IMG/VR virus record: IMGVR_UViG_3300010160_000055
Span: 1 to 56,479 of that record
DNA: 56,479 nucleotides
DNA from: a virus
Reading direction: 5' to 3' (one strand)
The notes below the pieces were generated by a model. It had not been told where the DNA came from, ran no database searches, and saw only the letters and a list, made by a program, of their open reading frames with translations. This document shows positions 6,914 to 30,455 of this stretch, in pieces. Within the stretch, counting starts at the first letter, position 1, and each line of letters opens with the position of its first letter. The translations under genes and the position numbers were made by a program.

Positions 6914-8542
6914 TTACACTGTTGTTAAGTCTGAGATAAAGATTTTACCATAGAATTCTGGTCTGATCATTTTCTTAGCATAACGAGTCATGATACCTTT
7001 TCTTGGAGTGAAGGTAGCTGGATCGTATACTAATGGAGTCATGATTAATGGAATGTATGGAGCATAAACTGCACCTGTTTCCAAGAATTGAGATCCTCTG
7101 TATCCTAACAATACAACGTTTTCAGTCATGTAAGGGTTTTTATAAACTCTGAAACGAGAATTTAAATTTCCTACTTTTTGAACTCCCATTGCAAAGTCTA
7201 GTTTATCACCGTTTGTTTCTGCTGCATATCCAGGAATTGATTCTAAGATTGTAGCTACAGAAGGAGAACATACTAAGAAGTTAGCTCCACCTCTTAAAGT
7301 TTTTTGGTGAATTTTGTTAGATACTTTTTGTACTTTAGTACCTAAAGTTCCAAACCATTGACCTTGAGTGTTGTAGTAAGCTGATGCTGTAGTAGACCAG
7401 TTAGTACCTGTCCAAGTTTTGTTGTTAGCTGCTGACCATCTTTCAGTTGTAGCTGCATCTTGAATCAACATATCCATTAACTCTAAGTCAATCTCCATAG
7501 AGATGTACTCTGATAATAATGAAGTTAATTCTGCTTCAGCGTCAATTGAGTGGTAAGCATTCAAATCTTGTGCGAACTCTGGAGTCCATTGTGCTTTTAA
7601 TTTTCTTGTTTTAGCAACGATTGCTTCAGAAGCAAGAGTAACGTTAATTTCTGGGATAGAAATTGGAGAGTTAGTTGTGTTGTCCTCGAAGTCACCTCTT
7701 GAGTTATCAGCTGGTTGTTTTTGGTATTTAACTTGTGCTGTGAATGAACCAGTTGTTACTGCTGAGATACCGTTAGTTGTATCACCAGCTTTTGCTACTA
7801 CGAATACAACGTAAGCACCTGCTGCAGATTGAGATACGAATGTAAATTCTGGGTTAGTTGTTACGTTTATAGAAGCTGATTGTAATCTGAATGCTCTTAC
7901 ACCTTCCAAGTCTGCTCCTGATAAAGAAGAAGTTTGAACTGCCATAGTAAAGTAGTTAGCTAAAGCAAGATCTTGGTTATATCCAATTGAAGCAGATACT
8001 GCTGATCCTGAAGTAGTTAATACACCTGCATAAGAAGCAGAGTTAATTGAGTATCCAAATTGACCTGCACCGTATAAACCTCCGTTTACATCTTCGTCTA
8101 CTGACATTTTATTGTTAGCGTCAGATAGGTTACCGTATAAACTATCGTTTAAAGTTCTACCGTTTGTAGAAGTACCGTATTTAAAGTCTAAGTAAAATAC
8201 AAGACCTGAAGGTAAGTTCATTGGTTGTACAGAAACGAAGTCTTTAGCAGCGATTTGAGCGAATACTTTACGTACTAATGGTAAAGCTACTCCAGCCCAT
8301 TGCTCAGCACCTGTTCCACCTGCACCGTTTGTTGTTCCAATTGCTCCAGTACCTGTTTGAGAAGCCTCAGATACGATTTGTTTTGCTTGATTCTCAAGAA
8401 TCATAGCCATGTTGTTTCTTTCGATTTCGTTAGAAATACCTTCTAACAAACCTGATTTGGCCCATTTACCAGACAAACGAGCAGCATCTGCTTGTAAAGT
8501 CTTGTAATTGCTAGCCCCTTCGAATAATTGATTTAATTCCAT
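6914..8542 (-). CDS. gp23: Major capsid protein (gp23-like)
   Basis: 542 residues, close to T4 gp23 (521). It follows the scaffold gene and ends at a strong terminator, the canonical position. The N-terminal helical segment (M-E-L-N-Q-L-F-E-G, then L-E-N-Q-A-K-Q-I-V-S-E-A near residue 55) corresponds to the propeptide removed by gp21 in T4. Later blocks include W-A-G-V-A-L-P-L-V-R-K-V-F (about 82-94), K-L-K-A-Q-W-T-P-E-F-A-Q-D-L (about 312) and I-M-T-R-Y-A-K-K-M-I-R-P-E-F-Y near the C-terminus, all typical of HK97-fold T4-type capsid proteins. Codon use is more G/C-ending than its neighbours, as expected for a highly expressed gene. Confidence 0.95.
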   Translation of the reverse strand: MELNQLFEGASNYKTLQADAARLSGKWAKSGLLEGISNEIERNNMAMILENQAKQIVSEASQTGTGAIGTTNGAGGTGAEQWAGVALPLVRKVFAQIAAKDFVSVQPMNLPSGLVFYLDFKYGTSTNGRTLNDSLYGNLSDANNKMSVDEDVNGGLYGAGQFGYSINSASYAGVLTTSGSAVSASIGYNQDLALANYFTMAVQTSSLSGADLEGVRAFRLQSASINVTTNPEFTFVSQSAAGAYVVFVVAKAGDTTNGISAVTTGSFTAQVKYQKQPADNSRGDFEDNTTNSPISIPEINVTLASEAIVAKTRKLKAQWTPEFAQDLNAYHSIDAEAELTSLLSEYISMEIDLELMDMLIQDAATTERWSAANNKTWTGTNWSTTASAYYNTQGQWFGTLGTKVQKVSNKIHQKTLRGGANFLVCSPSVATILESIPGYAAETNGDKLDFAMGVQKVGNLNSRFRVYKNPYMTENVVLLGYRGSQFLETGAVYAPYIPLIMTPLVYDPATFTPRKGIMTRYAKKMIRPEFYGKIFISDLTTV

Positions 8543-8568: not shown

Positions 8569-10032
8569 TTATTTAATGATTCCTGCTAACTTCTGCCATC
8601 TAGATACTTGCTCAGATACTTCTGATAGGATTTCTTTTGGTGCAGTTGTTTGTGCGTTACCTGTTGCTTTAGAAGCAAAAGATCTGTGCTCTTTGATTGC
8701 AGCTGGTTTAGCAACTACATTTTTAGAAACTGTTTCGAAAACTAATTTTACTTCTTTAACTGTTTCTGCTTTGTCAAAAGCTGCGATAACGTTTACTTTT
8801 TGACCTTCAGATAAGTTGTTTGCTTTAAATACTTTATTTACATAAAGTAATTTTGCATTTATAAGGTTAACTTCTTGAAGTTGGTTTCTTAAAATTTTAA
8901 CTGCTTTTAAAGCTTCGTTTAATTCCTCAGACTCTTCAGATACGTTTCTTGCTCCTGCTGCGGCATTACCAATATCGGTTAATTTATCTCCGATTTTTTT
9001 TCCTGCTGCACCGAAAGCACCGTCTTTAGCCATTTGGTGTACTTTAGCCATAATTGCTGATAATCCGAAAATTCCAGCTGAACCTAAAGCTCCAACAACT
9101 AATTGTGCGGTGTTGTTGTTTAAGAATGGGAAAGCATCAATAAGTTGGTAGATAATATCGATGTTTTCATCCATATTGTCAACTTCTTCATTTACTGCTT
9201 CAACTCCTTCTCTGTTTTGGGTAACTCTGGCTGCTGTTCCTCCGGCTTTTTGTAGTTTTTCAGCAAAAGATTTAGCTCCACTTCCAAATTTTCCAGCTAG
9301 AGCCATATCCATTACTTTAGCAACAACTGCAGAAAATGCTGTAAGACCTGCTGCGCCAAATGCTCCTATAACTAGTGATGCGCTTGACATGGTTAAGAAT
9401 GGGAACATTTCAACAAGCTGTTTAGCTCCTTCGATATACTCCGGTCCCATTTCGTTTAATTCACCTTCTTCCATGTACCCGTCGTTTGCACCTTTTTTGT
9501 CTAAATCTTTTGGATTTTTACTGTAAGATGTTTCATCCATACCTTCTAATTCTGCTAATAATTCGTTAATGTCGATCTCTTCAGAATCATCCATACTTGT
9601 CAAGTCGTCTCCTTCTGGAGCTTCTTCACCTGCTTCGATTTCTTCTTCGTGACCTACTTCTTGTGCAACGATGTCTTTAATAAGGTTTTTTAAATCTTCA
9701 ACAGACATGTCTTCAATTTCTAATTCCTCTTCTTCTTCGTTACCTTCTTCTTCTCCTTCTTCTTCAGCAGGAGTTTCTTCTTCCTCTTCTTCGTTTAAAT
9801 CTCCAATATTACCGTGCTTTGCTGGATCTTCAGAATAATCTTCTGATCCTGCTTGGTTTAATGTAGCTTCATCCATTTCATCCTCTTCCATTTCCTGTAG
9901 CTTTTGAGCTAACATTTCTTTTAGATGTGGAGTCAATGTTTCTTCTAAAGCTTCCTTAGCATTGGTAATTGCAGCTTCACGAATAGTTTTAGCTTCTGCA
10001 ATTGCTTGCTTAAATAAATCTTTGTTTGACAT
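8569..10032 (-). CDS. gp22: Prohead core scaffolding protein (gp22-like) with duplicated hydrophobic module
   Basis: 487 residues. Residues 1-60 are helical; 60-170 are extremely acidic (long Glu runs). Two copies of a hydrophobic Gly/Ala-rich module follow at about 206-266 and 297-357, with L-V-I-G-A-F-G-A-A-G-L and L-V-V-G-A-L-G-S-A-G-I cores. The C-terminal 120 residues (L-R-N-Q-L-Q-E-V-N-L-I-N-A-K-L-L-Y, then N-L-S-E-G-Q-K) match what I know of gp22 prohead core proteins of T4-type phages. It is larger than T4 gp22 (269 residues). The order protease, scaffold, capsid is canonical. gp22 is normally degraded by gp21 to small peptides, some kept in the head, so the hydrophobic repeats might survive as packaged peptides (inference). 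A structured leader precedes it. Confidence 0.85.
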   Translation of the reverse strand: MSNKDLFKQAIAEAKTIREAAITNAKEALEETLTPHLKEMLAQKLQEMEEDEMDEATLNQAGSEDYSEDPAKHGNIGDLNEEEEEETPAEEEGEEEGNEEEEELEIEDMSVEDLKNLIKDIVAQEVGHEEEIEAGEEAPEGDDLTSMDDSEEIDINELLAELEGMDETSYSKNPKDLDKKGANDGYMEEGELNEMGPEYIEGAKQLVEMFPFLTMSSASLVIGAFGAAGLTAFSAVVAKVMDMALAGKFGSGAKSFAEKLQKAGGTAARVTQNREGVEAVNEEVDNMDENIDIIYQLIDAFPFLNNNTAQLVVGALGSAGIFGLSAIMAKVHQMAKDGAFGAAGKKIGDKLTDIGNAAAGARNVSEESEELNEALKAVKILRNQLQEVNLINAKLLYVNKVFKANNLSEGQKVNVIAAFDKAETVKEVKLVFETVSKNVVAKPAAIKEHRSFASKATGNAQTTAPKEILSEVSEQVSRWQKLAGIIK

Positions 10033-10722: not shown

Positions 10723-11049
10723 TTAAGGTGTGTTTAACAATTCTACTTTTCCCATCAAGTCATCACCTTCCCACCATAATTCTTTTACGACGTGTGATGC
10801 ATTCTTAAGAGATACAATTGCTGATTCTGGGTGATCTAATTCTCCGTAGGCATTTCCTACCTTAACAAAATTCTCTACATAGTTTTTTACTTCTTCTTCA
10901 AGAATTTCTCTTTTATAGATTCTTCCGTTTTGGTTTTTAGCTCCTGCTCTTTGCATAATACCTGTTACCTCAAATACACCTGGTTTGGTTTTTGATTCGG
11001 TAAGAAGTCCTTTGAAAGGAGTTACATTTACTAATAATGGATTGTTCAT
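10723..11049 (-). CDS. gp21: Prohead protease gp21, N-terminal half (ends at in-frame TAA)
   Basis: 108 residues. It contains the hallmark Q-R-A-G-A-K-N-Q-N-G-R-I-Y block (about 32-44) and G-E-L-D-H-P-E-S (about 69-76), where the His belongs to the catalytic set of T4-type prohead proteases. The protease cleaves scaffold, capsid N-termini and internal proteins during head maturation. The ORF stops after E-L-L-N-T-P, a point where homologues continue with x-G-N-I-V or x-G-x-I-V. The reading frame continues in phase with exactly that (10468-10722). So the gene is split between its His half and its Ser half by one TAA codon. Nonsense mutation, consensus error or readthrough are all possible. Confidence 0.8.
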   Translation of the reverse strand: MNNPLLVNVTPFKGLLTESKTKPGVFEVTGIMQRAGAKNQNGRIYKREILEEEVKNYVENFVKVGNAYGELDHPESAIVSLKNASHVVKELWWEGDDLMGKVELLNTP

Positions 11050-17021: not shown

Positions 17022-18308
17022 TTAGAATCTTTCTCGTCTACCTTGAATCTTTTCTTCTAGCATATCTAACAATGTTACTGTAAATTGGAATGTTCCTTCC
17101 ATCTCACGGTCCATTAAGGTACCTGCCGTTACTACATCATGTAATAAATTTAATGCGTTTCTAGCGTCTACTATTGCTTCTGTATATTTTCTTGGAATAT
17201 CCATAGCTTGCATTCTTTCTTCTTTCAGTAATCTTGAATTAGCAGTGATTTTATTTTCTGCTAAGAATTTTCTTAGGTCGAAAGCTCCTTCCTGTAAAGC
17301 TTCTACTTTTTCTGCTTTTGCAGCTGAAGCTGGTTTGTTGTTTTTGTTAAATTTCTTATCGAATGCTGCTTTTAACTTTTCTGCTGCTTTTTCTAACTTT
17401 GCAGCATCTGTTGCTAATTGCTTTAAGTCTTTTGGACTAATGTGTGCAGCATGTTCACTTTCTTCCATTCTCTTTGCTTTCATTCTTAGAGCTTCAGCAA
17501 TCTTTTTCATTTGCTCCATTTTATGCTTTTCTGCTACCTCGTTGGTTCCGTGGTCGATGCTTTTCATTAATTCATCGATTGAGTTGTATTCAGGTATTAC
17601 AGTTTCGTCAGCCATTTCATCTTCTACAACCATTTGAGAGGCTGGATCTGGTAATGGTTTTCCTGTTAGTGCATTAGTACCAAATTCATGGTCAGGATTT
17701 TGTGGGTGTGGGTTAGGGATTTCTTCTTCTTGTATTCCCATGGCTCTTTGAACCATTTCTACTAAACGTCTTTCTTTAGCAGTTAAGTTTGTTTCTTTCA
17801 TCATTGTATTTTCGTTTACTTGTTCATGTTTTGCTGCATTTTTCCACATTGCTGCTGCTGCTACTTTTTGTCCTGCTTCTTTTGAGCCGTATTTTTTCTC
17901 TGCTGCTTTTTCTATTTTCTCAAAGCCAGCTCCTTTTTTACCAATATCTCCACCATGTTTAGCTTTTTTTACTAAAGCTGATTTTTCTTTAGCTGTCATT
18001 CCAGCTGATGGTGCTTTTTCTTGTAAGTACAATTGATTATCGTGAATTAACTCTCCTACTAATCCGTAATTTTCTTCTTGAAATTGTTCTAATTCTTCAT
18101 CTGTTAATGGAGTTCCATCTTCGTAATCTGCTGCTACAATATATGCATCTACAAAGTCTGGGTAATCATTCATGTCGATATTATCGATTTCAATTGAATT
18201 AATGTCAACTGGTTTTCCGTTAAACTCTATTCCTTCTGAAAGAAGTTGTGCATTTTTAGTAAGTTTATTCTCTGTTAAGAATGTTCTTAAGTTAAAATTA
18301 TCTGCCAT
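17022..18308 (-). CDS. Putative internal head protein with duplicated targeting-like module
   Basis: 428 residues, helical, Lys/Ala/Glu-rich. It begins N-F-N-L-R-T-F-L-T-E-N-K-L-T-K-N-A, and a second copy of the same module, A-F-D-L-R-K-F-L-A-E-N-K-I-T-A-N-S, lies inside at about 342-358. A third copy starts the separate gene 29841-30455. Around residues 100-160 is a block common in T4-like phage proteins (G-M-T-A-K-E-K-S-A-L-V-K-K-A-K then A-A-E-K-K-Y-G-S-K-E-A-G). A coiled coil follows near 290-340. I infer a virion-packaged protein, possibly a fusion of two cargo proteins, each with its own leader. It is preceded by a late-type box and followed by a terminator, so it can be a single-gene unit. 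Confidence 0.6.
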   Translation of the reverse strand: MADNFNLRTFLTENKLTKNAQLLSEGIEFNGKPVDINSIEIDNIDMNDYPDFVDAYIVAADYEDGTPLTDEELEQFQEENYGLVGELIHDNQLYLQEKAPSAGMTAKEKSALVKKAKHGGDIGKKGAGFEKIEKAAEKKYGSKEAGQKVAAAAMWKNAAKHEQVNENTMMKETNLTAKERRLVEMVQRAMGIQEEEIPNPHPQNPDHEFGTNALTGKPLPDPASQMVVEDEMADETVIPEYNSIDELMKSIDHGTNEVAEKHKMEQMKKIAEALRMKAKRMEESEHAAHISPKDLKQLATDAAKLEKAAEKLKAAFDKKFNKNNKPASAAKAEKVEALQEGAFDLRKFLAENKITANSRLLKEERMQAMDIPRKYTEAIVDARNALNLLHDVVTAGTLMDREMEGTFQFTVTLLDMLEEKIQGRRERF

Positions 18309-21233: not shown

Positions 21234-21896
21234 CTATTTGCAATGATAATTTAGATACCTCTGCAATGCTTTTCCATAGTGAGTACCTTTATTGTCTAAT
21301 GCAGAATGTGCTGCTCTAACTTTTGTACAGGTTAGTTTTCCTAATCTGTCTTTTAGTATTCCTGGTTTAACAGGATCATCTATTCCTTCCTCCAAAGCTA
21401 TTGTAGGGTCCGGAGTCATAAACCCCGGTTTTCTCATAATAGTTTTTGCTAGTGCTTGATTTACTTGACTAACAAAAGGTATATTGATGCTACTATTTCT
21501 ATCTTTAACAACAAATTCATGATACTTTTTAACAAAGTTTATAAAAGCATCTTTTTTACTAGCTAATCTATTAAAAAATAATACTAATTCATCTGATGTT
21601 ATTTCTTTACCGTTTCTAGGATCGTTTAATCGATCAAAGAAGTGATTACCGAACTCTATATCAATAGGGTCTAGTTCTGAATCAGCATGTCTCTCTACTG
21701 AATCTAGTTCAGAAGAGGTCATCTCTTTCATAGCAAGGATTTCTTTTCCTGCCTTTACAGCTGCTTTAAAAGCTTTACTCCCTTTTCTAGCAGGCTTCTC
21801 TCCTCTTTTATGTTTTGCATTTATATTAGCCCACAGTCCTTTAGATTCTTCTTCAAGAACTTCTCTAACTAACTTTTCTAATACACTTCTTTTCAT
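21234..21896 (-). CDS. Protein with capsid-targeting-like N-terminus, function unknown
   Basis: 220 residues. N-terminus M-K-R-S-V-L-E-K-L-V-R-E-V-L-E-E-E is strongly amphipathic and contains L-V-R-E and L-E-E, like T4 capsid-targeting peptides. The central helical domain (F-G-N-H-F-F-D-R-L-N-D-P-R-N-G-K, about 83-98) is followed by a C-terminal motif L-T-C-T-K-V-R-A-A-H-S-A-L and G-K-A-L-Q-R-Y-L-N-Y-H-C. Both blocks look like conserved phage modules, but I cannot name them. It lies 3 bases from the next gene in a run of accessory genes sharing the same leader style. Confidence 0.55.
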   Translation of the reverse strand: MKRSVLEKLVREVLEEESKGLWANINAKHKRGEKPARKGSKAFKAAVKAGKEILAMKEMTSSELDSVERHADSELDPIDIEFGNHFFDRLNDPRNGKEITSDELVLFFNRLASKKDAFINFVKKYHEFVVKDRNSSINIPFVSQVNQALAKTIMRKPGFMTPDPTIALEEGIDDPVKPGILKDRLGKLTCTKVRAAHSALDNKGTHYGKALQRYLNYHCK

Positions 21897-23183: not shown

Positions 23184-23774
23184 TTACGAATCTATATGGC
23201 TTTTTAAATGCTTTAAATACTCTTGAAGATTTGTATTGATTTGTTGTTTAAACTGAGAGTTACTACTGTTCCAATCCTCAACATCTCCCTGTTCCGTTAC
23301 AAAAGTGTCTACCGATTGTAAACTTTCCAATACCCACTCTTCAACATCTTTAGCAAAAGCCTTAATACTTCCCTGCATCATATTTCTCTCGTACGATTCA
23401 TAAAGACCTGCTTTTCTTAATTCTGCTTCGTACTCTACAGTACAGGGATCAAAGCAAAAACCATGAATCTTATACATCTTTTGAGCTAAGTGGTGTTTCA
23501 TTGGCCCTCCGCACTTTGGACATGCTAATGGTATTTGTAAAGCTTTTTTTGCTAGGTCTAGTTTTGTAATGTTTTGCCTTAGTCCATTTTTAATAGTCCA
23601 GGTTCTTCCATTCTCTTCCCAGATATCTCCTTCTTTGTAAGCAACTTGTGCTTTTGAATATCCTACACCATCAACAGTCTTTGCCGAAAAATCTTTTTTA
23701 ACTAAATTTCTAGCTCTATTAACATCTCTAGATGAAAATTCTTTTTTAAGTAAGCTCTCTTTCGCCATAACCAA
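23184..23774 (-). CDS. Zinc-binding protein of unknown function
   Basis: 196 residues. Region 45-75 holds E-G-D-I-W-E-E-N-G-R-T-W-T-I-K-N-G, followed by a C-P-K-C-G-G pair (about 90-95) and C-F-D-P-C (about 112-116), a four-Cys zinc knuckle. The combination with Q-N-I-T-K-L-D is a conserved phage arrangement I recognise without a known function. The C-terminal half is helical and ends in a Gln/Leu-rich amphipathic segment. The start overlaps the HAD gene's end by about 29 bases. The second Met (third codon) is an equally good start. Confidence 0.6.
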   Translation of the reverse strand: MVMAKESLLKKEFSSRDVNRARNLVKKDFSAKTVDGVGYSKAQVAYKEGDIWEENGRTWTIKNGLRQNITKLDLAKKALQIPLACPKCGGPMKHHLAQKMYKIHGFCFDPCTVEYEAELRKAGLYESYERNMMQGSIKAFAKDVEEWVLESLQSVDTFVTEQGDVEDWNSSNSQFKQQINTNLQEYLKHLKSHIDS

Positions 23775-24336
23775 GTTCTTTTAGTTTATTTATAACCGAT
23801 GAAACATCTCCATCTTTACATTCTATTGCTATTCCTCCTTTAGAAGCAAATGCCTCTAGGTTAGAAGGTTTATCATCTATTAATATAGAGTTTTCATTTG
23901 CAAAATCCGACTTAGCATCTCCGAATCTAAAAATTACTTCTGGTGCTGGTGATAAGTGATTTCTTACCCATAGTTTTTTACCTAATCTTGAAGTATCATC
24001 CTCGGATGGTGATGTAAGAAGTTTTGGTCCGTATGGTTGTATAAAGTCCCATAAGACCTGTCCTTGAGGCATCCAGGGCATATCTGACCAGAACTCTAAT
24101 CCTATGTGCTGATCAATGAATTTCCAAAACTCTTCTGTTCCTTCTAGTTTATCGAAGTGCTTAGGTCTTGTTACTTGAGCAATAACTGCTTTTGAATAGT
24201 ACTTTGGACCTTCTTTTCTTAAAAGAGTAACAAATCTTCTTTCAAAGTCTGTTAATACTCCGTCCATATCACAGTATATCTGATACTTAGGTATAAAGTC
24301 TGATTCTTCTAATAATAAGTCTGTTAAATTTCCCAT
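23746..24336 (-). CDS. HAD-superfamily phosphatase / 5'-nucleotidase-like protein with cargo-like leader
   Basis: 196 residues. HAD motif I is D-M-D-G-V-L-T-D at 23-30 (nucleophile D23, acid/base D25). Motif II is L-L-T-S-P (T108 region), the motif III lysine is near K120, and motif IV is I-L-I-D-D-K (154-155 acidic pair). The fold dephosphorylates small phosphorylated metabolites or nucleotides. It resembles the deoxyribonucleotidase-type phosphatases of large phages, which adjust nucleotide pools. In front of the HAD core is M-G-N-L-T-D-L-L-L-E-E-S, matching the leader seen on several neighbours. It starts 13 bases after the big nucleotidyltransferase gene. Confidence 0.8.
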   Translation of the reverse strand: MGNLTDLLLEESDFIPKYQIYCDMDGVLTDFERRFVTLLRKEGPKYYSKAVIAQVTRPKHFDKLEGTEEFWKFIDQHIGLEFWSDMPWMPQGQVLWDFIQPYGPKLLTSPSEDDTSRLGKKLWVRNHLSPAPEVIFRFGDAKSDFANENSILIDDKPSNLEAFASKGGIAIECKDGDVSSVINKLKELGYGERELT

Positions 24337-24348
24337 AACCTTTTTATT

Positions 24349-27072
24349 TTATAATATTTGTTTTAATCCTAATGCAGGTAATCTCTTACGCCATAAGTTA
24401 AGGATTTCCTCTCTTTCTTGAGGCGTAATATCTTGAGCATCTAAATAACTGCTCACAACATCTGCAAATGGTCTTTTTTCTTTTTTAGCTCTAAAATACA
24501 TTCCCTGTAGGTTTGCATCTATCTCTTTTTTTAATTTAAAGTAGTCTCCTATTGGCTTTATTCCCGCTCTAATTTTATCTCTTTTAGATAAATCGCCTCT
24601 CATTATTTTAGAAGGGTTTGTAGATACTCCTCCTCTATTATGTGTTAAGTGTTCGATTTCATGTCTAAAAAGATCTTTTAAAGTCATTGAGACTTCTTTC
24701 CAGAAGCTAGGTAGTATTTCTGGATCTACTGCAATATCGATTATAATAAAATCTCCATCTCTATCGAAACCTGCTCCTGTACTTTCTAATACTTCCATTT
24801 TTCCTGTTCCAGGTGTTAATACTAAAGTACCTTCTACGTCGAATTCTACATCACCATTTGAATAGGTTTCTTCAAATCCTATGCTCTTTTCTCCTGCATC
24901 AAATGCTTCTTTCCAAGCTCTAAATAAATCTGATGATGCTTGATTGCTAATCTTGTCGTATCTTCCTTCTGCCATAACCTCTTTGTTGTCATTATTTTTT
25001 AACCCGTCTTCCCAGTTTCTGAATGTGATGTTACCTTTTAGGTAAGCTTCTTTTTCTATTTCCTGAAAGACGTTGTCTTCATTTGTATTGGTAGTTGCTC
25101 CTATTCCTTGAAGCCTTCCTTCCATGTTTTGCATGTGGTGAATCATTTCATGAGAAAATGATCTACAAACATCCTTTGGATGTCTTCCTAATACGTATAG
25201 AATTACTTCTTTATTGTTTGGATCATAGTATGCTGTTTTACCAAAGAAGTTATTTGCCTCATTTTCATCGTATCTAATTTTAATTTCTGGTAGTGGTTGG
25301 ATGTTCATTCCTTGGTCTAACATATACTCTATAAGAGATCCTATATATGGAGTGTAGTTGAACTTTTCTTGCTCCACTCCCTCTGGTAAGTGCTTTTGGT
25401 AAGGTGTTCCATCAAAACTTACATCTGAATAGGTTTTAATGTAGATGTCAATTCTATCCTGATTGAATACTATTGTAAATTTGTCTGGATCGATTGTTTG
25501 TTTTAAATCGTCATAAAGGTGCTCTAAAGAAGCTCTATCTTTAGAAGGAATTGCACCTCCTGGTTGAATTGGTGTTCCTGATGATCCTTCTTTTACTGTT
25601 TTAGTTTTTTTAGGAAAGAAGCCTTCAAATACTTCATCAACTGCAGCTAACATTTTATCTTCAATTGCAGGTTCTTCTTCCTGTGGTTTTATAATATCGA
25701 TAATTGCTTGCTTATCTTCTTTTGATACTACTTTTGGAATCCATTTACCGTCTAGTAAAAACTTCTCTGACTTTCTAATATCAGTTGCTGAGAATTTATC
25801 ATCTTCTTTATTCGTAATAACAGGAAGTTCTTTTATTTCTACATTCTTGTAGTCACCTTGTTTTTTCTTCTTTTCTATTCCAGAGAATTTACCCATTTCA
25901 TCAGCCATAGCTCCTGTTATAATCTTTGTTACTTTGTTTTGATTTGCATCAATCCATTCATAAGTATCTAAGATTGGAGTTACTTTACTAATATGAATCT
26001 CCATTGGTACGTTTATGTATTTAGCATAAATTTCCCAAATTGCTTTTGATTGTTCTGCTGTAATCTTTACTCCTTCTCTGATCTTAGGTCCGATGAAAAT
26101 AACAATCTTATCTGCTTTGGTAGAAAGGAATTTAGCATTCTCAAAGTGAGCAAGGTGTGGTGGTTTAAATCCTCCAGCATAAAGTGCTACAATTTCAGAT
26201 CCATCATCTAATGCTTCAGAAAGTGTTTGTGCTACTTTTTCAAGAGCATCTTCTTTACCTTTTCCTTTAGCTGTTCCAACCTCTCCTGATTTAACAGATA
26301 CCATTGATTTGAATATACCTGCTATTCTGTTCTTAGATCTCTCGTTTGTTAGTTTTCTAGCAACATCATCTAATAGATCTTCAAAAGAACCATCTATATT
26401 AAATCCTTGAAATAATATTTTAATAGTACCCCAAGCTGTTGTTGACCATACTTCTTCTCTTGCTATTTCTCTAAAGTTTTCTAATTTTACTTTTCTTAAA
26501 GATAGTTTTACCGATGATAAGTTAAATTCAAACTCTTCACCTCTTTTCAGTTTAGGTATATTTGAAATACCCATTCTTCTAAAGACATCTTGCGGATTTT
26601 GTTCCAATAGAATTACTTTTGCTAACCCTATTAATAGTCCTTGCTTTTCAGCTGGTAAATCTAGGAAAGATCCTTTAAAGGCGTGTTCTTCTTCGGTAAG
26701 AGAAATGATATTATCAACTTGAATATATTGATCTTCTTTACCTACAATCGGGTAAAGTACTGAGATTAATTCTCCTGAGTTGTAATACCTTCTGCCGGTA
26801 TATTTTTCTGATTTAAAAGGTATAATTACGTTTTGTGGAAGTGCTAAAGCTGCATCGATAAGTCTTTGTTTAACTTCTCTCTTATCGTCTCCTTCAAACC
26901 ATACTATTATATCTAAGTCTCCAAAGTCAGCTTTTGTTCCTGCTTTCACAGATCCTGATAGAGAAGCTTTTTTAAAGCCTGGTATTTTACTTAGAACTTC
27001 TTCTACGTATTTATTGAATGTAGCTTGTACATCCCCTCTTTCTATTCTATTTCCTCCTGCTACTCCTGACAT
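24349..27072 (-). CDS. Four-domain fusion: nucleotidyltransferase, NMN-adenylyltransferase-like, two HExxH protease-like domains
   Basis: 907 residues. Domain 1 (1-200): polymerase-beta-type nucleotidyltransferase with L-S-G-S-V-K-A-G-T-K-A-D-F-G-D-L-D-I (G-S at 40-41, D52, D54) and a third Asp in I-Q-V-D (D120). Domain 2 (293-465): nucleotidylyltransferase fold with G-G-F-K-P-P-H-L-A-H-F (300-310) and F-S-A-T-D-I-R-K-S (427-435), the signatures of NMNAT-like enzymes. Domain 3 (515-690): H-E-M-I-H at 641-645, a zinc-protease motif, in an S-F-S-H-E-M-I-H-H-M-Q context. Domain 4 (700-907): a second H-E-I-E-H at 804-808. Such a fusion is unusual. It may modify a host factor or NAD and act proteolytically (inference). 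No frame breaks. It is directly coupled to the second nucleotidyltransferase. Confidence 0.8.
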   Translation of the reverse strand: MSGVAGGNRIERGDVQATFNKYVEEVLSKIPGFKKASLSGSVKAGTKADFGDLDIIVWFEGDDKREVKQRLIDAALALPQNVIIPFKSEKYTGRRYYNSGELISVLYPIVGKEDQYIQVDNIISLTEEEHAFKGSFLDLPAEKQGLLIGLAKVILLEQNPQDVFRRMGISNIPKLKRGEEFEFNLSSVKLSLRKVKLENFREIAREEVWSTTAWGTIKILFQGFNIDGSFEDLLDDVARKLTNERSKNRIAGIFKSMVSVKSGEVGTAKGKGKEDALEKVAQTLSEALDDGSEIVALYAGGFKPPHLAHFENAKFLSTKADKIVIFIGPKIREGVKITAEQSKAIWEIYAKYINVPMEIHISKVTPILDTYEWIDANQNKVTKIITGAMADEMGKFSGIEKKKKQGDYKNVEIKELPVITNKEDDKFSATDIRKSEKFLLDGKWIPKVVSKEDKQAIIDIIKPQEEEPAIEDKMLAAVDEVFEGFFPKKTKTVKEGSSGTPIQPGGAIPSKDRASLEHLYDDLKQTIDPDKFTIVFNQDRIDIYIKTYSDVSFDGTPYQKHLPEGVEQEKFNYTPYIGSLIEYMLDQGMNIQPLPEIKIRYDENEANNFFGKTAYYDPNNKEVILYVLGRHPKDVCRSFSHEMIHHMQNMEGRLQGIGATTNTNEDNVFQEIEKEAYLKGNITFRNWEDGLKNNDNKEVMAEGRYDKISNQASSDLFRAWKEAFDAGEKSIGFEETYSNGDVEFDVEGTLVLTPGTGKMEVLESTGAGFDRDGDFIIIDIAVDPEILPSFWKEVSMTLKDLFRHEIEHLTHNRGGVSTNPSKIMRGDLSKRDKIRAGIKPIGDYFKLKKEIDANLQGMYFRAKKEKRPFADVVSSYLDAQDITPQEREEILNLWRKRLPALGLKQIL

Positions 27073-27073
27073 A

Positions 27074-27982
27074 TTATACTCTGTATTGTGTTAAGTTTGA
27101 ATTATCCGGTAAAAACTTACCTTTTAATCCTAATCTTTCTTGATTTTTTATCCAATAAGCTTGTAAGTCTTCTGGTATATCACATCTAGTACTATCTAAT
27201 ATTTTAAGATAAGTATCGTAAACAGCATGTAATTCTTGTTCAGATAAACCTCCTTCTAGTGTTTCTATCAACTTAAAGTAGTCTCCTATCGTATCTCTAT
27301 CTAAATTTAGATTATATGATTTGTTCAATAGGTCTATTGCTTGTTGTGGTGTATTTGCTACAATCTCTTGTGATTCTTTATCCTTTACTCCATAATTGTG
27401 AGAGAATGTAAATCCTTTCTGTGAGAATAAAGATACCAGTAATTGTGTTCTATGTAACCCTTTTACGTTTCCTGAATATGTAGCTGAATGATATGCAAAC
27501 TGTAACCAATCTACATCTCCTACATTTACATCTATTTGAACGTTTTGCCCTACTACTTCGTTATTCTCATCGTATTGTGGGAATAGAAGGAATAAAGCTC
27601 CTGCAGAAGATCCTTTTACATCTGCTATGATCTCTGTATCAGCTTCTGCAATCTTTTGTGCTATTGCTACAATTACAGCTCTTTTCATTAACTGATCATC
27701 TGAGGATGTTCTAGCTCTTTTCTTAAACCCTTCAAATAATGCTTGAACGTGTTTTTCGTCTAGTCCCCAATCTTCTACATTATCAAAGGATGACCCGGCT
27801 AGTGCTAGGTCAATATCCCCTGAATAATCTTTTTTCCCTACAGATCCTAGAGTTTTCATCTCTCTAAAGAATGGTTCTGCTTTTGGAAATATTTGTTTGA
27901 ACTGTTTAAAAAACTCTAATAGAGTTGGTTTAATATGCTCTTTTTTTATCGGTGCTGTACTATCGAATACGTTTCCTCCCAT
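27074..27982 (-). CDS. Nucleotidyltransferase-fold protein
   Basis: 302 residues. T-L-G-S-V-G-K-K-D-Y-S-G-D-I-D-L-A (about 44-60) is the G-S...D-x-D catalytic signature of the polymerase-beta-type nucleotidyltransferase superfamily. The third acidic strand is V-Q-I-D-V-N-V-G-D-V-D-W (about 148-159), and H-R-T-Q-L-L-V-S-L-F follows near 178. Related proteins beginning G-G-N-V-F are found in T4-like marine phages. Substrate is unknown: candidates are tRNA, protein or small-molecule nucleotidylation. It sits one base from the 907-residue gene, whose first domain is another nucleotidyltransferase. Upstream are both an early-type promoter (28000-28030) and a late-type box (28041-28050). Confidence 0.78.
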   Translation of the reverse strand: MGGNVFDSTAPIKKEHIKPTLLEFFKQFKQIFPKAEPFFREMKTLGSVGKKDYSGDIDLALAGSSFDNVEDWGLDEKHVQALFEGFKKRARTSSDDQLMKRAVIVAIAQKIAEADTEIIADVKGSSAGALFLLFPQYDENNEVVGQNVQIDVNVGDVDWLQFAYHSATYSGNVKGLHRTQLLVSLFSQKGFTFSHNYGVKDKESQEIVANTPQQAIDLLNKSYNLNLDRDTIGDYFKLIETLEGGLSEQELHAVYDTYLKILDSTRCDIPEDLQAYWIKNQERLGLKGKFLPDNSNLTQYRV

Positions 27983-29840: not shown

Positions 29841-30455
29841 TTATACTGCTGCTATTTTATTTGCTAATTGTACAACTTCTGATGATTTAAAAGCAGATAA
29901 TCCACCTTCTAGTCCTTTTCCTATTAAGTTATGAGCTTCCATTGCTTCTGCACCACTTGATACTGCTGCTGCAACAAGCATTGCTGCGTATACTCCATGT
30001 GCTACTTTATACAATTCAGAGGTTTCATCATGTGGGTCTTGCTGTCCATATCTCTTTGGAAAAGCTTTTTTTACCATTCCTCCGATTACCTCTATGTACT
30101 TATGTTCTAAGCTATGTCCAAATTTCTTAAGAGCATTTCCAACTACTGTTCCACTTTTTTTATCTTTTTGGAATAAAGAAGACATTCCGTTTACTCCTTT
30201 TCCTAATAAAGAAATGATACCTGGTGCTCCTACTATTAATCCAAGAGTCATTGACTCGTCTAATTCCCCGTCTTTTGGAGATGGTTTAATTGTACTTGTA
30301 CCTTGTTGAAGTAAAGCTAAAGCTCCATTTAATCCTTGTTTTGCATCTTGATCTGCTTCAGGATCTGCTTGTGGTGCTACTTCTGCTTCTAATATTTTAG
30401 AGTTAGGTGTTAACTTATTTTCTACTAAGAATTTTTTTAAATCGAAATTATCCAT
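29841..30455 (-). CDS. Putative internal protein with shared leader module and hydrophobic helices
   Basis: 204 residues. It begins N-F-D-L-K-K-F-L-V-E-N-K-L-T-P-N-S, the same module found twice in the 17022-18308 protein. An Ala/Gln-rich linker follows, then two hydrophobic segments: L-G-L-I-V-G-A-P-G-I-I-S-L-L-G (about 71-85) and A-A-M-L-V-A-A-A-V-S-S-G (about 157-168). These recall the Gly/Ala-rich modules of the gp22-like scaffold. A virion-packaged, possibly membrane-active protein is a reasonable inference. It overlaps the small basic gene upstream by eight bases and is closed by a terminator. Confidence 0.55.
   Translation of the reverse strand: MDNFDLKKFLVENKLTPNSKILEAEVAPQADPEADQDAKQGLNGALALLQQGTSTIKPSPKDGELDESMTLGLIVGAPGIISLLGKGVNGMSSLFQKDKKSGTVVGNALKKFGHSLEHKYIEVIGGMVKKAFPKRYGQQDPHDETSELYKVAHGVYAAMLVAAAVSSGAEAMEAHNLIGKGLEGGLSAFKSSEVVQLANKIAAV

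Follow-up and report, generated by a model that had tools for sequence, protein, structure and literature searches.

A 907-residue protein combining nucleotidyltransferase and zincin-like domains is a probable capsid-internal enzyme polyprotein of a T4-type phage

The window analysed here is a 56-kb virus record from IMG/VR (IMGVR_UViG_3300010160_000055; 56,479 nucleotides), and all positions refer to the full window. A gene on its minus strand encodes one chain of 907 residues in which a pol-beta superfamily nucleotidyltransferase domain, an HxGH (HIGH-superfamily) nucleotidylyltransferase domain, a mini-domain, and two zincin-like domains follow one another in this order (Table 1). A first-pass annotation had described a fusion of two nucleotide-transfer domains with two HExxH domains; the open reading frame (ORF) is exact, and the domain order recurs in relatives. 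Beyond the features listed earlier, the chain has a mini-domain (residues ~508-546) and, where domains meet, four motifs that are putative prohead-protease sites. In this study, we present the evidence that the chain is probably a polyprotein of enzymes that a T4-type phage takes into its capsid and cuts with its prohead protease.

The window resembles Flavobacterium phage vB_FspM_immuto (160 kb, Immutovirus; hereafter immuto), and its phage appears to have flavobacteria as hosts. Protein gp088 of immuto (YP_010114595.1) is a full-length homologue of the 907-residue protein with 80% identity and the same architecture. Its annotation is 'nicotinamide mononucleotide adenylyltransferase, NadR', nothing further, and no studies of it were found in the literature. 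Both genomes share the neighbouring genes for a primase, an exonuclease, a 302-residue pol-beta-like protein, and a 5'(3')-deoxyribonucleotidase (NT5C). Relatives of the 907-residue protein were found at 48 IMG/VR loci, and relatives of the C-terminal domain (zincin-like domain 2) in 398 IMG/VR stretches. The full-length order is kept in immuto at 80% identity and recurs in dozens of contigs; it is thus neither a product of chance nor of misassembly. When the protein was scanned as a single sequence against Pfam and PHROG, nothing rose above threshold (Pfam matches, E 0.1-0.14), and PADLOC gave a sub-significant match only. One scan of genome contigs for cellular relatives yielded two loci, L134 with the same phage-type architecture and L135, a small contig starting with a zincin-nucleotidase pair; hence, there is no host-encoded version to learn from.

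Table 1. Features of the window, with positions, strand, and supporting observations
Feature	Position	Strand	Observation
Whole 907-residue multidomain protein gene	24349..27072	-	Exact ORF, ATG start
Pol-beta superfamily nucleotidyltransferase domain, residues 1-265	26278..27072	-	GS 40-41, D52, D54, D120
Putative prohead-protease site LSE286/A287, residues 284-287	26212..26223	-	Between pol-beta and HxGH domains
HxGH (HIGH-superfamily) nucleotidylyltransferase domain, residues 294-462	25687..26193	-	Profile and Foldseek
Putative prohead-protease site VKE495/G496, residues 493-496	25585..25596	-	Disordered linker 487-507
Mini-domain, residues 508-546 (about)	25435..25551	-	Helix and two strands in AlphaFold2 model
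Putative prohead-protease site LPE564/G565, residues 562-565	25378..25389	-	Disordered linker 547-569
Zincin-like domain 1, residues 571-688	25009..25362	-	HEMIH 641-645; Glu in EKEAY 673-677
Putative prohead-protease site MAE702/G703, residues 700-703	24964..24975	-	Between the two zincins
Zincin-like domain 2, residues 703-907	24352..24966	-	HEIEH 804-808; Glu in KEIDA
5'(3')-deoxyribonucleotidase (NT5C), downstream gene	23746..24336	-	Pfam NT5C 2e-5, phrog_2643 8e-22
Second pol-beta-like nucleotidyltransferase (GSVGKKDYSGDIDLAL), upstream gene	27074..27982	-	Candidate paralogue, 302 residues
Gp23-type major capsid protein	6914..8542	-	Pfam Gp23 2e-81
gp21-type prohead core protease (Peptidase_S77)	10723..11049	-	Pfam PF03420 2.8e-20

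The N-terminal domain belongs to the pol-beta superfamily, with the GS...DxD...D triad and a palm fold. Foldseek matched residues 1-265 with DNA polymerase lambda/beta (E 9.5e-6), and the Pfam models Polbeta, NTP_transf_2, and DNA_pol_B_palm were hit below threshold in several members of the family. The signature residues seen at first pass (G40/S41, D52, D54, and D120) are present and invariant across 16 aligned relatives. The HxGH domain carries the NMNAT-like (nicotinamide mononucleotide adenylyltransferase-like) signature that had been proposed for it, GGFKPPHLAH at residues 300-309 and SATDIR at 428-433, and H306/H309 and R433 are likewise invariant in the 16 relatives. In the profile search, its best match was the archaeal NMNAT MJ0541 (E 1.6e-7), accompanied by many phosphopantetheine adenylyltransferases (PPATs); in Foldseek, it matched PPAT (E 1.9e-4, TMt 0.63). 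The mini-domain is conserved in the relatives L032 and L036.

These matches bear on one alternative, in which the protein would be an unpackaged intracellular multifunctional enzyme whose HxGH domain adenylylates NMN for NAD+ salvage against NAD-depleting defences, the other domains assisting. The SATxIR motif, the MJ0541 match, the NadR annotation of the immuto homologue, and the adjacent nucleotidase and primase, which are metabolic and replication genes, speak for it, and NAD+ salvage by phages is known (PMC9503650). However, PPAT and NMNAT structures fit the domain about equally well, and none of the curated NMNAT models reached its cut-off (NCBIfam, 15.7 bits versus a cut-off of 127). NadV (PF04095) occurs in one of seven long related phage records, being missing from the other six, and is absent from immuto; the zincins and the linker motif described below would also be left unexplained. 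The role in NAD metabolism suggested at first pass therefore fared poorly, and we regard this alternative as quite improbable. The one relative with a NadV-type phosphoribosyltransferase (L069 contig, G003, 154549-155352) indicates that certain lineages may have a use for NAD salvage.

The minus strand of the window encodes two HExxH motifs in total, both inside the 907-residue ORF and at the positions given at first pass (641-645 and 804-808). In zincin-like domain 1, H641/E642/H645 and E673/E675 are invariant across the 16 relatives. In domain 2, 10 of 10 sequences keep H-E-x-E-H and, further downstream, the Glu of K/S-E-[IV]-D-A. The AlphaFold2 (AF2) model gives both domains the same topology of a helix, a sheet, the HExxH helix, and then a helix with the invariant Glu (H-b-H-b-b-H(HExxH)-H(E) in domain 1, similar in domain 2). 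As modelled, an HExxH helix and a third-ligand Glu helix stand behind a small beta sheet, as in zincins, so the fear that the motifs might lie outside a zincin fold was not borne out. The same core has been described for the metallopeptidases of polyvalent proteins (PMC5512222). In Foldseek, the best matches of the two-zincin model in the PDB were selecase (prob 0.92, TMt 0.50) and IrrE, with E 0.1-0.2, below significance; predicted viral IrrE-like proteins in BFVD matched with E 4e-6, a value for which the search output does not specify the first or the second zincin. Topology and motif are thus suggestive of zincin folds, and we take the two domains as predicted zincin metallopeptidases with putative peptidase activity.

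The window also encodes a Gp23-type major capsid protein and a gp21-type prohead protease. Residues VSE59/A60 of the capsid protein aligned to the T4 gp23 cleavage site (HMMER). We take that site to be LTE65/A66 in T4, which agrees with the length of 456 residues of the mature gp23 entries among the aligned sequences. The Peptidase_S77 frame is broken by an in-frame TAA in the window contig, with the remainder in the same frame, and is intact in immuto; the TAA could be a sequencing error or mark a defective genome.

The motif behind which gp21, the prohead protease of T4, cleaves its substrates is L/I-x-E (PMC9026906). The AF2 model of the 907-residue protein (40-sequence alignment) has a mean predicted local distance difference test score (pLDDT) of 80, and pLDDT falls below 50 between domains, at residues 465-472, 487-507, 547-569, and 689-700, as well as in two loops within domains. 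All four candidate sites lie at domain borders, three of them in or directly after linkers with pLDDT < 50. At the 702/703 site, P3 is L/M/I, P1 is E, and P1' is G in 36 of 36 aligned relatives, while P2 and the upstream linker vary. The linker test comprised 62 linkers from 29 protein clusters (70% identity), with expectations from residue shuffles. The motif [LI]xE occurred 112 times in inter-domain linkers versus 53.8 +/- 6.4 expected (twofold), and [LI]xE|[AGSN] 57 times versus 12.2 (4.7-fold); the folded domains were depleted (21 versus 48 expected). The control motifs [LI]E, [LI]xxE, [LI]xK, and [LI]xD were at expectation in linkers, and the reversed motif showed a mild excess (70 versus 53.8, p 0.014). 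The excess persisted at 60, 50, and 45% clustering (18, 12, and 11 clusters; 23 versus 5.8 at 45%), and each junction type was significant on its own.

The motifs could be incidental if the protein were an ordinary soluble fusion whose linkers contain amphipathic helices ending in Glu, its proximity to head genes being a coincidence. Over the whole proteome, [LI]xE shows hardly any enrichment (536 versus 493) and is carried by many non-head proteins, and the 907-residue protein alone has nine strict [LI]xE motifs, two of them at domain borders. Whole-protein motif counts in the immuto proteome likewise gave no significant excess (capsid protein, p 0.058). Such counts are not discriminating; hence, position tests in linkers and at N-termini were used, and the protease-site signal is positional. 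The excess is specific in spacing and residue, goes with small P1' residues, survives 45% clustering, is present at each junction type taken separately, and matches the leaders of standalone proteins. We therefore consider incidental motifs very unlikely.

T4 internal proteins enter the prohead by a short N-terminal capsid-targeting sequence, which gp21 removes (PMC9026906). The NT5C protein of the window starts with a 10-residue leader of this appearance, MGNLTDLLLE/ES. Among its relatives, standalone (e.g. MPNLLDLYE/) or fused, [LI]xE stands just before the NT5C domain in 74 of 76. Proteins with the order HxGH, zincin 1, and zincin 2 begin with MNSLVKSLIQPILE/, and relatives fused to a pol-beta domain can keep an internal leader-like stretch (DLIKPFLME/ in L112, LLSGFIAE/ in L125). 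The motif thus ends a short N-terminal leader where the module is alone and lies just upstream within the chain where it is fused. The head region of immuto (100.8-128.5 kb), picked post hoc, is rich in N-terminal [LI]xE leaders, which are present on 19 of its 28 proteins versus 27 of 150 elsewhere (p 3e-7).

Two further leader types were observed. The leader M(E/A)(N/D)xF(D/N)L(K/R)xFL(V/T)ENKLTxNxxLLxE is common to otherwise different proteins and fits a transferable capsid-targeting sequence; its carriers are encoded at 17022-18308 and 29841-30455 (-) in the window and at 1803, 103806, 117631, and 118632 in immuto. The leader MKKQILSEQFxRMQxLAGIITE, at the N-termini of the immuto proteins at 25061 and 111675, resembles the C-terminal end of a scaffold-like protein of the window (8569-10032), SEVSEQVSRWQKLAGIIK, and the resemblance possibly reflects a shared core-binding signal.

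The module content differs between relatives by gains, losses, and swaps. A search of the fetched contigs with profiles of the four domains gave, in redundant counts, 46 proteins with pol-beta, HxGH, zincin 1, and zincin 2; 47 with HxGH and both zincins; 13 with pol-beta, HxGH, and zincin 1; and 8 with HxGH and zincin 1. Zincin 1 and zincin 2 occurred without the other three domains in seven and five cases, respectively. L060 is a split gene pair, and L112 is a 1204-residue chain with a duplicated HxGH domain. The linkers also host other modules, namely a zinc ribbon, NT5C, which is fused to the polyprotein in some relatives, the 'RHFIERVND' module, and the 'ITL' module. The longest case, L129:3-4286, is an open chain of 1,428 residues with a terminal second pol-beta-like domain. 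Along this chain, an HxGH remnant, zincin 2, a zinc ribbon, HAD-like and HD-like motifs, and the pol-beta-like domain were observed, with LNE, LFE, and LYE at the borders.

A domain repertoire of this kind recalls polyvalent proteins, and the chain could instead be an injected multi-effector protein cut by its own zincins, before packaging or in the new host, without the prohead protease. The two HExxH...E domains fit the polyvalent scheme, in which the hub is formed by zincin metallopeptidases that presumably process the chain (PMC5512222), and most relatives have a zincin and the transferase domains together in one chain. The linker motif, however, is the L/I-x-E of gp21-type proteases. It also ends the leaders of zincin-free proteins (the nucleotidase and other head-region proteins), and the linkers are unchanged in relatives without the second zincin. 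Polyvalent-specific Pfam families (e.g. MPTase or LPD models) matched neither the 907-residue protein (hmmscan E <= 1) nor its relatives (E <= 0.01). We judge self-processing unlikely. For polyprotein processing, raised at first pass as something to look for, a candidate signal was found, which points to a T4-type prohead protease and not solely to the built-in zincins.

The capsid-internal polyprotein proposed here builds on the domains and their conserved catalytic residues, the exchange of modules, the T4-type head and protease, and the excess of the linker motif, all of which were observed. Inter-domain sites of the T4-type capsid protease kind suggest that the chain is cut inside the head. 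The 907-residue chain would be taken up into the prohead core, where the gp21-type protease would cut at [L/I/V/M]-x-E/[G/A] sites between domains. The products would be a pol-beta-type nucleotidyltransferase, an HxGH nucleotidylyltransferase, the mini-domain, and two small zincin metallopeptidases. These pieces would remain in the head, be ejected probably with the DNA, and act on host targets early in infection. From packaging to ejection, enzyme activities, and targets, these steps are what we infer.

Several points weigh against this proposal. The N-terminus of the protein (MSGVAGGNRI...) has no [LI]xE in the first 25 residues and thus no capsid-targeting leader, which makes prohead entry of the pol-beta version unclear; the internal leader-like stretches could serve entry instead. 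The gene lies beside the primase and exonuclease genes, ~7 kb from the terminase gene and outside the core head cluster. P3 is V or M, not L/I, at two of the four sites, although the alignment of the capsid VSE/A with the T4 LTE/A maturation site makes V a plausible P3 residue for this phage. The nine strict motifs and the whole-protein counts given above count here as well, and the 907-residue protein taken by itself does not convince. Both the motif-position test and the head-region window were settled on once the pattern in the data was visible, and linkers of homologues share ancestry and are not fully independent. In the giant Salmonella phage SPN3US, the known prohead cleavages, apart from protease self-cleavage, yield N-terminal propeptides (PMC10052503). 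We found no proteomic data on the virions of these phages.

Compared with the internal head proteins of T4 (IPI-III and Alt), the window genome has the same setting of a T4-type Gp23, an S77 protease, and the L/I-x-E motif, and leaders of 9-14 residues like that of IPIII are found on the adjacent nucleotidase, the HxGH-zincin relatives, and other head-region genes. Unlike the T4 proteins, which are single effectors trimmed at the ends, the sites here separate four enzyme-like domains of one chain; the pol-beta version is without an N-terminal leader, and its packaging is something we infer. The protein shares with polyvalent proteins (Iyer et al. 2017, PMC5512222) the unrelated enzyme domains in each chain, the zincin(s), the modular shuffling, and the location in a phage late region, but the signal that is a candidate for its processing belongs to the prohead protease. 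The polyvalent survey reported pol-beta nucleotidyltransferases in conjugative-element proteins only, and a text search of it found no mention of an HxGH-type adenylyltransferase (PMC5512222). The first-pass remark that no characterised protein with such a domain order was known agrees with this survey and with the immuto annotation. The 'cytidyltransferase' and neighbouring ligase-like gene of cyanophages and pelagiphages similarly place an HxGH domain beside another nucleotide-transfer domain; unlike here, these genes are separate and have no zincins in the chain, zincin fusion occurring only in some contigs (e.g. L039). In phage Melnitz, leaders of the MKKFSEIIE/ type accompany them.

Neither internal head proteins nor polyvalent proteins with several effectors are new. 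In the literature searched, which included few subscription journals, we found no description of a T4-type enzyme polyprotein, or other phage head polyprotein, whose catalytic domains are separated by protease sites. There is perhaps an even chance that T4-type phages of flavobacteria, and partly cyanophages and pelagiphages, use polyproteins of interchangeable modules between prohead-protease sites, up to 1,428 residues long (L129), a single chain targeted to the capsid thereby supplying a set of injected enzymes in a fixed ratio. The modules of such a strategy would include the pol-beta and HxGH nucleotidyltransferases, zincins, NT5C, and others, with new effectors arising by insertion between two LxE sites. 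If so, enzyme polyproteins maturing within the head would exist in tailed phages; a strategy of this kind is generally linked to RNA viruses. The LxE-boundary rule would then be a simple sequence test for injected enzymes of many uncultured T4-type phages, whose proteins are mostly 'hypothetical' at present, and would help to place the domain cuts correctly when such enzymes are to be expressed. The pair of nucleotide-transfer enzymes and the pair of metallopeptidases would be candidate host-takeover or counter-defence factors from the start of infection.

The upstream pol-beta-like gene is strongly conserved, and Pfam, PHROG, and NCBIfam gave no convincing match for it. Homology between the two neighbouring pol-beta genes was considered and not accepted (hhalign E 7e-4, with a probability of just 26%, over the nucleotidyltransferase signature). 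Matches of one relative to proteins of Melnitz and a Sinorhizobium phage were ruled out as zincins, as they concerned another inserted module. The RHFIERVND...AKTVMRKKNF module of ~110 residues occurs standalone, internally, or C-terminally in unrelated T4-type phages, mostly beside LxE motifs; its carriers are the window protein at 21234-21896 (-), L072, L104, phage Melnitz gp31, and phage phiM12 gp458.

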